The position numbers and the translations under genes were made by a program. Of a stretch of 64,000 nt of DNA, positions 4,291 through 62,839 are shown in pieces. The stretch is from Sphingomonadaceae bacterium. Lineage in GTDB: Bacteria > Pseudomonadota > Alphaproteobacteria > Sphingomonadales > Sphingomonadaceae. The notes beneath the pieces are model-generated. The model saw only the letters and a list, made by a program, of their open reading frames with translations. It did no database searches and was not told the DNA's origin. The stretch covers positions 1-64,000 of the forward strand of contig JAJTEF010000009.1 of assembly GCA_021300355.1 (NCBI GenBank), given 5' to 3'. Within the stretch, counting starts at the first letter, position 1. The number at the start of each line of letters is the position of its first letter.

Positions 4291-5004
4291 CTACTTTACG
4301 TTAGCGTAAACGTCAATTGGCGAAGTTACCGCTGCCGCGACGTAACATAGCCTGCGTTTACGTGCGCGTGTCGGGTTTTGGTGGCGAAGACGGCGGGGTG
4401 GCGGACGCGTCGGCCGACGCAATGACTTCGCAAATGCCAGTGGCAAGCGAATGCAGCCATGCGACGCAGGATAACCGGGCACATAGCCGCCGTGTATGGC
4501 AATCCCGTCCCATGTCAGCCGCTGCATATAGGGCATTGGGGCATTGCTATAGAGGTTGGATTTGTGATCGACATTTTTTTGCAGAATATTGAACGCACCA
4601 ATGGGCGTTTCTTTGCCTTTTTTACCTGAAGAAATCGTGCTGAAGCCAATTAGCTTGTCATTTTGGAATACATAGACCCGCTGCGTATCAAGCACGACGA
4701 CAATCTTCATCGGCCCCTCATAGCGGTCTTGCGGGATCCACACATATTGCCCGGGCTTAAGCGTATCGACTGGTCCTTTTTTGGGGACGGGCTTTGGCGC
4801 AGGCGCGACGACGGGTGGTTTAACTATAGGTGGAGCAACAACCGGCGCCGGCACCGCGCTTTCAGGCACGACAGCAGGGCTAGCAGGAATGTTCGTCGGC
4901 ACGGCTGGAACAGCGTTCTGCGCAACCACACCAACGGGCGCGCTCGCGAACAGCGCAAGCGCACACATGAGGTGCAATGTCCGGATGCCCGCGTTCAATT
5001 TCAT
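4291..5004 (-). CDS. L,D-transpeptidase (YkuD family); C-terminus looks altered or truncated
   Basis: Signal peptide, Pro-rich linker, 'IAIHGGYVPGYPASHGCIRLP' catalytic motif; tail after 'LAFAK' is atypical. Confidence 0.8.
   Translation of the reverse strand: MKLNAGIRTLHLMCALALFASAPVGVVAQNAVPAVPTNIPASPAVVPESAVPAPVVAPPIVKPPVVAPAPKPVPKKGPVDTLKPGQYVWIPQDRYEGPMKIVVVLDTQRVYVFQNDKLIGFSTISSGKKGKETPIGAFNILQKNVDHKSNLYSNAPMPYMQRLTWDGIAIHGGYVPGYPASHGCIRLPLAFAKSLRRPTRPPPRRLRHQNPTRARKRRLCYVAAAVTSPIDVYANVK
4295..4310. promoter_or_regulatory. Candidate MerR-family operator upstream of the MerR gene
   Basis: TTTACG-TTAG-CGTAAA dyad, 36 bp upstream of the MerR start. Confidence 0.55.
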
Positions 5005-5834: not shown

Positions 5835-6038
5835 GGTCAGGACCTATTAAATGCGCCTTCGCGGTTTGAGGCCATATTGTTCAGTGCAAGGCGGTAAGCG
5901 CCGGACTTAGTGGTTCTAAGTCCAAGCTTGCTAACGCAGCAATGGACAATGTGGGTCAAATCCGAAGGACGCCAAAATGGCTTCGATATCTTTGCCATTT
6001 TGACGCCGCGATGGTGCATTTAATAGGTCCTGGCCCTA
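5832..6038. repeat. ~207-bp MITE-like foldback element with 23-bp terminal inverted repeats
   Basis: TAGGGTCAGGACCTATTAAATGC (5832-5854) versus the reverse complement of 6016-6038 (22/23 identical); internal hairpins GGACTTAG/CTAAGTCC and CAAAATGGC/GCCATTTTG. Confidence 0.75.
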
Positions 6039-6686
6039 GGCCTGCGACGTGCGCACAAGTGCGCCGATGACGAGATGTTCGGCATCGGGCTCAGCGAGCT
6101 GGATCATCCCGCCACCCTGCAGCGCAAGCGTATGCGCCATCCAGGCCGCGGCGGTGCGGGAATCTATCATCGAGGCATCAAGCTTCCCCGTCAGCGCCTC
6201 ACGCACAGCGGAATCCATGACAATTTTGGGACCACTCGCCCGAATAACAATTTCCTGTTCGTTCAATCCTGCTTCAGCGCCCACAAATAATGTGCCGCCA
6301 CGTACCAGCGCTTCGTTCGCCAACAGCACGAGGTTCAAGAGGATTTTGACCGCCCTTTTTGGCATCATCTGAGCAGGAACAGCCCATTCCAACACCTTAC
6401 GATCGCTTGAGGTTATCAGCGGTTCAATCACCATCCGCGCTTCCTTAGGGTCGACTTCTGAACCAAAGCCGCCGGCAGCACCAAAGGCGAGACGGAAAAA
6501 TTTCAGCTTATCGGCCGCAGCCTTCGCGCTTTCCGCCAGCAAATCCATGCACCGTTGCCGCATTTCCGGATCATGCTCGTCCGCCAGCAACTCAAGGCCA
6601 TTATTCATGGCACCGACAGGGCTCAAAAGGTCATGACACAGGCGCGAGCAAAGCAGGCTGGCAAATTCGATTTCCGTGTCGGACAT
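6036..6686 (-). CDS. chpT: Histidine phosphotransferase ChpT
   Basis: 'FASLLCSRLCHDLLSPVGAMNNGLELL' H-box region; start chosen at MSDTEIEF. Confidence 0.88.
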   Translation of the reverse strand: MSDTEIEFASLLCSRLCHDLLSPVGAMNNGLELLADEHDPEMRQRCMDLLAESAKAAADKLKFFRLAFGAAGGFGSEVDPKEARMVIEPLITSSDRKVLEWAVPAQMMPKRAVKILLNLVLLANEALVRGGTLFVGAEAGLNEQEIVIRASGPKIVMDSAVREALTGKLDASMIDSRTAAAWMAHTLALQGGGMIQLAEPDAEHLVIGALVRTSQA

Positions 6687-24108: not shown

Positions 24109-24172
24109 ACCCGCCGCCCAATAACGTTTCACAGATATCAATTTACCGTGCGGCGATCTTTCGCCGTGCGAC

Positions 24173-59167: not shown

Positions 59168-60247
59168 TTAAACGTCGTCTTCCACGTCAGGCCCTGTCAT
59201 AAGGACTTCAGCGACTTCTTCGGTCTTACCGCGGATGGCGGCTTCCAACCGTGCCGCAACTTCAGGATTTTCCGTGAGATAGCTTTTTGAATTCTCACGA
59301 CCCTGCCCAATACGGATCGAGTCATAGCTGAACCAGCTACCGGACTTTTCGACAATTCCAGCCTTCAGGCCCAGATCCAAAAGCTCCCCGGTCTTGGAAA
59401 TACCTTCGCCATACATGATGTCGAATTCGACCTGCTTGAAAGGTGGAGCCACCTTGTTTTTCACAACCTTCACGCGGGTCGTGTTGCCCACAATATCTTC
59501 GCCAGACTTAATCTGACCCGTGCGACGAATATCCAAACGGACCGACGCATAGAATTTCAACGCATTACCGCCCGTGGTCGTTTCGGGCGAACCGTACATC
59601 ACACCGATTTTCATACGGATCTGGTTGATGAAAATCACCATGCAGTTCGACCGGCTGATTGAACCTGTAATTTTGCGAAGCGCCTGGCTCATCAAACGGG
59701 CTTGCAAACCGACATGGCTGTCGCCCATTTCACCTTCGATTTCGGCGCGCGGCACAAGTGCAGCAACCGAGTCGATAACCAAAATGTCGACTGCGTTAGA
59801 ACGCACCAGCGTATCTGCAATCTCAAGTGCTTGCTCACCCGTGTCGGGCTGCGACACGATGAGGTTATCAATATCGACACCCAATTTCTTCGCATAGCCC
59901 GGATCCAGCGCATGCTCTGCATCGATAAATGCCGCCGTACCGCCTGCCTTCTGCGCCTCTGCAATTGCATGCAGAGTCAGCGTGGTCTTACCCGAGCTTT
60001 CTGGTCCATAAATTTCAATGACCCGTCCCTTAGGTAGGCCGCCAATGCCAAGCGCAATATCCAGGCCAAGCGAGCCTGTAGACACTGCATCAATAGCAAT
60101 AGCCTCACGACTACCCAGCTTCATCGCCGAGCCTTTACCGAAGGCGCGATCAATCTGCGCGAGCGCCGCTTCCAACGCCTTTTCACGTTCCGAACTTTTC
60201 ATACCGTTTGCCTGATTCCCATCGACCATTTTAAGACTTGCTGCCAT
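59168..60247 (-). CDS. recA: Recombinase RecA
   Basis: '[39 protein letters not shown]'. Confidence 0.98.
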
Positions 60248-60373: not shown

Positions 60374-60699
60374 CTAATTAGCCTTCACGAGAGCATCGTG
60401 GACCGCTTCCGCAATTTGCTGAACTGAAAATGGCTTAGCAAGGAACGACACATTGTCGAGGCTGATCGTCTCGCGCAACTGCTCCTCTGCGTAACCGGAC
60501 ATGAACAACAGGCGGATGTCGCCATATGTCTCGCGCAAATTGCGTGCCATTGTCGGGCCATCCATATTGGGCATGACGACGTCCGAGACGATGAGGTTGC
60601 GAGCGCCAATACCGCCAGCTGACGCACATCCAGCTTGGCGGACTGGTCCATGTCCCCGCCAAATATCTGGAATTGGGTCGGCGGGGATATCTTGTTCAA
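60374..60699 (-). pseudogene. cckA: Remnant of CckA-type hybrid histidine kinase: possible N-terminal stub fused out of frame to the receiver C-terminus
   Basis: 'NLIVSDVVMPNMDGPTMARNLRETYGDIRLLFMSGYAEEQLRETISLDNVSFLAKPFSVQQIAEAVHDALVKAN' is a CckA-like receiver end; kinase domains absent; upstream 'MNKISPPTQFQIFGGDMDQSAKLDVRQLAVLALA' in another frame. Confidence 0.72.
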
Positions 60700-60708
60700 A
60701 GCGGCTCC

Positions 60709-60948
60709 TTACCAGATGCGAACGCGGTCCTCAGGCTTGAGGTACAATTGCCCGTCTGCTTTTGGCTGGAACGCATCGTACCATTTGTCAAGATTGCGCA
60801 CGACCCACGCGCGTTGTTCCGACGGGCTGTGCGGGTCGGTTATCAAGCGCTGACGCAAATTTGCCTCACGATAATTGCTGCGCCCTAGCTGCGCCCAGCC
60901 AAGGAAAAAGCGCTGATCGCCGGTCATTCCGTCAATCACCAACCCAGT
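60709..60948 (-). pseudogene. C-terminal remnant of an M13-family (neprilysin/PepO-like) metallopeptidase
   Basis: 'VIDGMTGDQRFFLGWAQLGRSNYREANLRQRLITDPHSPSEQRAWVVRNLDKWYDAFQPKADGQLYLKPEDRVRIW*'; no catalytic HExxH; stop just upstream. Confidence 0.78.
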
Positions 60949-61021: not shown

Positions 61022-61588
61022 TTATCCACGAGACGCAATTGACTTCGACCGGCGTCGCCACTTGGCGCTTATCCGCCAGCGCCAAAACCATGCCGAGAGC
61101 ACATAACCGATCAGCGCTGCTGCGATGGATATGATCGCAAGCCCTGCGACGCCTTGGACAAGCGCCAAAGGTGCTTCGTTCCAGACATAATCACCCCACG
61201 CGGAAAGCGGCGCCGATGTCTCGATAAGTTGATAAAAATGGCCGGAGCCATTGTTCAACCGCAGCACCGATTCACCGACATACACCGACCCAAGCAAAAT
61301 GAATGGCGTTGTGGCCGGCATGCTCAGGAACGTCATCGCCGCGCCGATGGGGATATTTGCCCGAAATGGCAGCGCCAGCAGCGCGACACCAGCGATCTGG
61401 ACACCCGGTATCAAAAGGAAAATCCCGACCAACAGGCCAAGAGCTACACCCCGGGGGACGGAGCGCCGTGTAAAGCGCCAGAGGGCGGGATGAAACACGC
61501 GCTGCGCAAACGGCCGCAGAAAGCGGCTGCGTTCAAAGCTGTCGCGCGTGGGGGCTTGCCTGTGCAACCAGGTATCAAACTTACTCAT
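61022..61588 (-). CDS. DUF2062 domain-containing membrane protein
   Basis: '[56 protein letters not shown]'. Confidence 0.88.
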
Positions 61589-62067
61589 CCACGGTCGCGC
61601 ATAATGCGTCCTTGCTCACGCTTCCAATCCCGTTCTTTCTCGGTAGCACGCTTATCAGGTGCTTTTTTGCCCTTTGCCAACGCCAATTCCACTTTCGCCC
61701 TGCCGCGTCCATTGAAATAAATCGACAGAGGCACAAGCGTCATGCCCTGCCGCATCACCGCGCCATGCAGCTTGTTTATTTCGCGCTCGTTCAACAGCAA
61801 TTTTCTGGGCCGCTTTGGTTCGTGGTTAAACCGGTTTCCATGGCTGAATTCGGGGATATTTGCGTTAATTAACCAAATCTGATCATCGCGAACTTCTGCA
61901 TAGCTTTCGGCGATGGACCCTTCACCAAAACGCAAAGATTTTACTTCCGTACCGGTCAGGACAATTCCGGCCTCATATTTGTCATCGATATGAAAATCAT
62001 AACGGGCGCGCCGGTTTTCGGCGACCGTTTTGACTTTGTTGAATGCTTCGGGCTTTGGACGCGTCAT
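61585..62067 (-). CDS. smpB: SsrA-binding protein SmpB
   Basis: '[59 protein letters not shown]'. Confidence 0.96.
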
Positions 62068-62839
62068 TAAATAAGCCCTGCATTCTCCAAGGCGGCATCA
62101 ACCTGACGACGGCTCGCCTCGCTTGGCGGGGTCATTGGCAAACGCAACTCGGTTGGGAAACCGTCGATGACGCGTGACAACGCATATTTAACTGGACCCG
62201 GCGATGCGTCAGAAAACAACGCTAAATGAAGTGGATACAGCTTATCATTCAGTTGACGTGCCAAGTTATAGTCACCCGATGCACATGCTGCCTGAAATTC
62301 TGCACATAATTTCGGCGCAACATTCGCAGTAACCGAAATGCACCCGCGCCCGCCAGCCGCATTGAACGCAAGCGACTGTTCGTCGACGCCCGAAAGCAAG
62401 CAGAAATCAGGTCCGCAAGCCAACCGATGGTCCGTGACGCGTGGCATGTCACCGCTTGCGTCCTTGATACCGATCACCGTCGGCAACTGCGCAAGGCGCG
62501 CAACCGTTTCTGGCTTAATGTCAGTCACGGTACGACAACCAGTCCGGCAGCCGCACCGCTTTTCTTTGAAAAGTTAAGATGGAGAATGGCGTTATTGGTG
62601 TCATTCGACCCACAGCCGGCAATAACGGGTACGCGCCCGGCGGCTTGCTCAATACACACTTCGATCACGCGATGATGCTCTGCGTTTGACAGCGTTGACG
62701 CCTCACCGGTCGTCCCGGCGGGCACCAGCGCGCTTGATCCTTGGTCGATTTGCCAATCGATCAACGCACGAAAATGCTTTTCGCTAAACGCTCCGTCGCA
62801 AAAAGGAGTCACTAGAGCCGGTATCGATCCCGAAAACAT
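62067..62839 (-). pseudogene. dapA: 4-hydroxy-tetrahydrodipicolinate synthase, disrupted by an internal out-of-frame deletion
   Basis: N-terminal part (62525-62839) stops at 'GLVVVP*'; C-terminal part (62067-62528) resumes at 'TDIKPETVARLAQLP'; the segment with the two catalytic Tyr is missing. Confidence 0.88.

Follow-up and report, generated by a model that had tools for sequence, protein, structure and literature searches.

Probable loss of the kinase gene cckA during decay of the DivL-CckA-CtrA branch in a Sphingorhabdus lineage that retains ChpT

CtrA and its kinase CckA are regarded as the master cell-cycle switch of alphaproteobacteria, and they are essential in the best-studied species. 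CckA starts the relay, ChpT is the middle protein, CtrA is the target and DivL is a helper; flagellar and chemotaxis genes are typically controlled by such a relay. The phosphorelay of Caulobacter crescentus, CckA-ChpT-CtrA with DivL and CpdR, has orthologs of every part in the genus studied here: a full CckA, a CtrA above the NCBIfam cut-off, a DivL with its Tyr box, ChpT and CpdR.

CtrA is described as conserved in most alphaproteobacteria (PMC8116508), and the Sphingomonadales cluster has been described as conserving CckA-ChpT-CtrA (PMC2877005). In Sphingomonas melonis, of the same order as our organism, the CcsA/CckA-ChpT-CtrA relay is branched, CcsA being the second kinase according to a title cited in PMC8921679. 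PMC8116508 and PMC8921679 describe this relay as dispensable for viability, and the former, citing Francez-Charlot 2015, states that loss of ctrA harms neither growth nor viability. However, S. melonis possesses the parts, which were removed by laboratory deletion, whereas the loss that we describe occurred naturally; a hybrid kinase resembling CcsA was not detected in the genome studied here. Pelagibacter and Granulibacter are, like our organism, alphaproteobacteria without a ctrA ortholog, but in their group cckA is described as present and no chpT was found (PMC2877005), whereas here cckA is lost and ChpT remains; further, different stages of loss are seen here inside one genus. In the literature searched, no published report of relay loss in Sphingorhabdus was found.

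The window analysed is a stretch of 64,000 nucleotides (contig JAJTEF010000009.1, assembly GCA_021300355.1) from the 2.18-Mb genome of a freshwater bacterium, reported to be 99.7% complete and here called G000. The nearest genome is MAG 39-57-19 (G008), whose corresponding locus (L011) has 95-96% DNA identity over its length. The features discussed are collected in Table 1.

Table 1. Positions of the cckA remnants, their neighbours and chpT in the window
Feature	Position	Strand	Remarks
chpT	6036-6686	minus	intact, 216 aa
recA	59168-60247	minus	intact flank, downstream of cckA
CckA receiver C-terminal remnant with stop	60374-60598	minus	97% identity; NCBIfam CckA models, Pfam Response_reg
Deletion junction	60587-60597	minus	11-bp imperfect overlap, AGGT exact; blastn against G008
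cckA N-terminal stub	60598-60699	minus	34 codons from a TTG start; full-length cckA N-terminus in G006, G004 and G008
M13 peptidase gene remnant	60709-60942	minus	77-aa C-terminal part; Pfam Peptidase_M13; gene precedes cckA in relatives
DUF2062 gene	61022-61588	minus	intact flank, upstream of cckA
dapA	62067-62839	minus	split: 103 bp are missing compared with G008 and the rest of the genus, which shifts the frame

Between recA and the DUF2062 gene, the position of cckA in relatives, two remnants are found. The first-pass annotation had described them at 60374-60699 as a stub and a receiver tail, and the minus-strand frames confirm this. The stub frame starts with the TTG at 60697-60699 and begins (L/M)NKISPPTQFQIFGGDMDQSAKLDVRQLAVLALA; G006 and G004 have the same TTG-started N-terminus, and the counterpart in G008 is the cckA start LNKISPPTQFQIFGGDMDQSAKLDVR*LAVLALATLLSLAILWF. 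A stub unrelated to CckA is thus ruled out by its match to the N-terminus of full-length orthologs in the genus. The other frame reads NLIVSDVVMPNMDGPTMARNLRE and closes with ALVKAN and a stop, ending at 60374; it comprises the last 74 receiver codons, matches residues 699-772 of G008 CckA at 97% identity, and has CckA models as its best NCBIfam matches (E 3e-24). By synteny and sequence, both remnants evidently derive from cckA. A functional CckA carries PAS, HisKA, HATPase_c and receiver domains; what is left here is the first 34 codons and the last 74 residues of the receiver, mutually out of frame.

A blastn comparison with G008 shows that exactly 2,083 bp of cckA are missing: window positions 60374-60597 lie in a block that matches L011 up to 3553, and positions 60587-60891 correspond to L011 5626-5930. 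As 2083 mod 3 = 1, stub and tail are out of frame, with the change of frame near 60590-60598. The earlier claims of a kinase lost at its own locus, with about 2 kb gone and an out-of-frame joint, are therefore supported.

The cckA of G008 is almost complete, with an in-frame TAG at codon 27 and a TTG right after it (L011 5655-5660 region); it may be restarting or decaying. An M13 gene had been placed just upstream of cckA, and it is there, but only as a fragment. The full gene encodes 682 aa in G006; it is full-length in some members of the genus, degraded or absent in others, and degraded in the nearest relative. Elsewhere in the window, about 3.3 kb of G008 (549712-553045) are absent at 24163-24170, with an 8-bp overlap, and in an L,D-transpeptidase-like ORF (4291-5004, minus strand) the stretch RRPTRPPPRRLRHQNPTRARKRR near the C-terminus resembles a frame change.

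The possibility that another CckA exists, raised in the first-pass annotation, was not borne out. When the 772-aa CckA of G008 is compared with the whole G000 genome, there is no match beyond the 74-aa remnant (E 7.5e-40) except to other kinases or single receivers. In a comparison of HATPase_c domains, pairing the two genomes by score and length and not by tree, every G000 match pairs with a G008 match of like score and length, and the CckA of G008 is left unpaired. None of the G000 kinases inspected carries a receiver; they resemble, among others, NtrB, NtrY, PhoR and a ChvG-like kinase. No CckA or CckA-like hybrid kinase was thus found elsewhere in the 2.18-Mb genome; this and the other absences reported here hinge on search thresholds and completeness.

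Most of the remaining relay is gone as well. With Caulobacter CtrA as query (confirmed by its matches of 72-79% identity in the genus), G000 gives no match at E 1e-60, while the orthologs in most of the genus reach about 1e-120. At the syntenic ctrA locus, on contig C73, the gene is absent inside the contig and about 144 bp stand in place of 1,046 bp. DivL, identified by its Tyr-for-His box ANMSYEFRTPL, is reduced by a 2,058-bp in-frame deletion to a 109-aa remnant of a protein of about 786 aa, and G008 carries the same remnant. Of the Caulobacter set just ChpT and CpdR are intact, the latter as a CpdR-like receiver in a 128-aa ORF on C73 whose score lies at the 180-bit cut-off of NCBIfam CpdR. 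The ChpT of G000 contains Pfam HPTransfase and has NCBIfam ChpT as its best match, yet it lies below the cut-off of that model. Flagellar and chemotaxis genes are also missing: no FliF was found in G000, and although the nearest relatives have a cheA-cheW-cheY-cheB-like operon immediately after chpT (G008:C1:522000-531565), it is absent from the window, where homology with the nearest relative stops at the chpT stop codon (6036).

These results alter how the first-pass annotation should be read. Its intact chpT is borne out, and so is the loss of CckA at the locus, but the idea that chpT belongs to a relay in need of a donor is not: with ctrA deleted and divL a fragment, chpT has been left mostly alone. 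"Rewired", its second suggestion, is a less than ideal term: the output of the relay, CtrA, is lost along with CckA, and so is DivL.

The loss is not confined to the window. CckA is absent from six of the 45 genomes of the genus: G000, G042 (locus L018), G007 (L028), G046 (L031), and G044 and G049, which are assigned to L026 and L035 by elimination. The six losses represent five distinct deletions, all inside contigs and with junction overlaps of 0 to 11 bp. Measured against close relatives that keep the gene, the deletions span 2,083 bp in the window, 4,235 bp in L018, 4,339 bp in L026 and 4,100 bp in L031, while L028 and L035 have a 2,282-bp cckA deletion with a common junction. In addition to these six, the cckA of G030 is frameshifted by a 323-bp deletion. 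At least five changes are required to explain the losses on a tree built from recA, dapA, smpB and DUF2062. A single deletion inherited by all losers is ruled out, as the breakpoints differ and a sister relationship of the window and L018 is rejected (p-AU 0.001). For L028 and L035, the only pair with a common junction, a sister relationship is not rejected (p-AU 0.116), and their losses may count as one event. With this one kinase gene deleted in several close relatives, at breakpoints that differ, the loss of cckA looks real and recurrent.

Could the deletion in the window nevertheless be an assembly artefact, in which a chimeric read, a strain mixture or a consensus error has hidden a cckA that the organism still carries intact? 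The first-pass annotation allowed for a wrong assembly, and nearly all cckA losers are metagenome-assembled genomes. The receiver remnant is hardly degraded, cckA is almost complete in the nearest relative, and dapA, 1.9 kb away, is also broken, with a 2-bp overlap at its junction. dapA is normally essential, and a second copy that would excuse the broken one is ruled out, since this is the sole dapA in the genome; the break reflects either a mistake in the local assembly or a recent mutation that looks lethal. The stretch around cckA may therefore hold assembly errors. Against an artefact, the five other genomes, assembled by different groups, lack cckA through four other in-contig deletions; G000 also lacks ctrA and divL, whose loci lie on other contigs; four exact bases of overlap are far too short for a k-mer collapse by the assembler; and only four single-base frame-changing indels were listed over the 58 kb of aligned window on the same contig. 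Given the relatives, we consider an error at cckA improbable, although the broken dapA next door leaves some room for it, and we are largely confident that the loss in this genome is real.

Loss of cckA tends to go with loss of ctrA. The latter is deleted inside contigs in G000, G007, G044, G049 and G022, so that four of the six cckA losers are also without ctrA. In G046, G039 and G050, contig ends or low completeness obscure the state of ctrA. Among genomes with resolved status, ctrA is missing in 4/5 cckA losers against 1/35 keepers. On the tree this reduces to only three independent contrasts, all in the same direction (sign test p 0.25). G042, where cckA is lost and ctrA kept, and G022 (L030), where ctrA is lost and cckA and divL are kept, look like intermediate states. 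A DivL match is absent in G003, G004, G010, G041 and G052 despite the presence of CckA and CtrA, which suggests that DivL is often the first to go, though the DivL query is short, which weakens this for distant members. Loss of the flagellum is not a clean driver of this pattern: many genomes without FliF keep CckA and CtrA. Conversely, G007 retains fliF though CckA, CtrA, CpdR and a full DivL were not found, so that flagella may be expressed without the relay there.

Taken together, a single 2,083-bp deletion would have inactivated cckA in this Sphingorhabdus lineage, as part of a stepwise decay of the DivL-CckA-CtrA branch. DivL was probably lost first, by the in-frame deletion common to G008; the deletions of cckA and ctrA would have followed once the two lineages had separated. 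With CtrA gone, the kinase would have no master regulator to phosphorylate and would become dispensable, as reported for the loss of ctrA in S. melonis. That the whole branch has decayed, including a true inactivation of cckA, is in our view very probable, although G042 without cckA but with ctrA, and G022 with the reverse, count against it.

Alternatively, another kinase might feed ChpT, which would pass phosphate to CpdR or another receiver in a relay that works without CckA and CtrA. CpdR is retained in G000, G042, G044 and G046, ChpT is full-length in all losers and constrained, and a second kinase takes part in the branched relay of S. melonis, as the title cited in PMC8921679 has it. Further, G042 keeps a 521-aa hybrid kinase, which in G008 adjoins an H-NOX-like gene. 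However, a kinase with an attached CckA-like receiver was not detected in G000, and no CpdR match was obtained in G007 and G049. We regard such a rewired relay as rather unlikely.

Under decay of the branch, ChpT would serve, or until recently would have served, another partner, and CpdR also remains. The orphan ChpT is the unexplained part of the case. It is present in 43 of the 45 genomes and full-length in 6/6 cckA losers. G007 and G049 have a common cckA junction, matching ctrA deletions and no match to CpdR or a full DivL; between them ChpT shows a dN/dS of 0.08-0.11 at a dS of 0.39-0.54. A ratio of about 0.1 in two species without the known partners points to continued purifying selection on ChpT, but its timing is uncertain because the tree places L024 and L027, which keep cckA, between L028 and L035.

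It is quite possible, if somewhat short of an even chance, that ChpT is merely a small leftover, without function and not yet deleted. In the window lineage the losses of cckA and ctrA postdate the split from a 96%-identical relative, so there has been little time to remove it. The divergence of ChpT in G007 and G049 under such a low dN/dS speaks against a leftover, and so does the window itself, where the loss of the che operon reaches precisely to the stop codon of chpT. More tentatively still, the role of ChpT may be conserved and need neither CckA nor CtrA nor, in two species, CpdR. ChpT would then be an orphan histidine phosphotransferase with another donor and acceptor, uncovered by the natural deletions that have repeatedly removed the other parts of the relay.

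A free-living genus thus repeatedly dismantles the switch, and close relatives within it have lost cckA, ctrA, divL and cpdR in differing combinations. This makes it a natural experiment on the purpose of the relay and on the possible order of its loss. As every loser retains ChpT, the genus also points to a directly testable function of ChpT outside the textbook relay.
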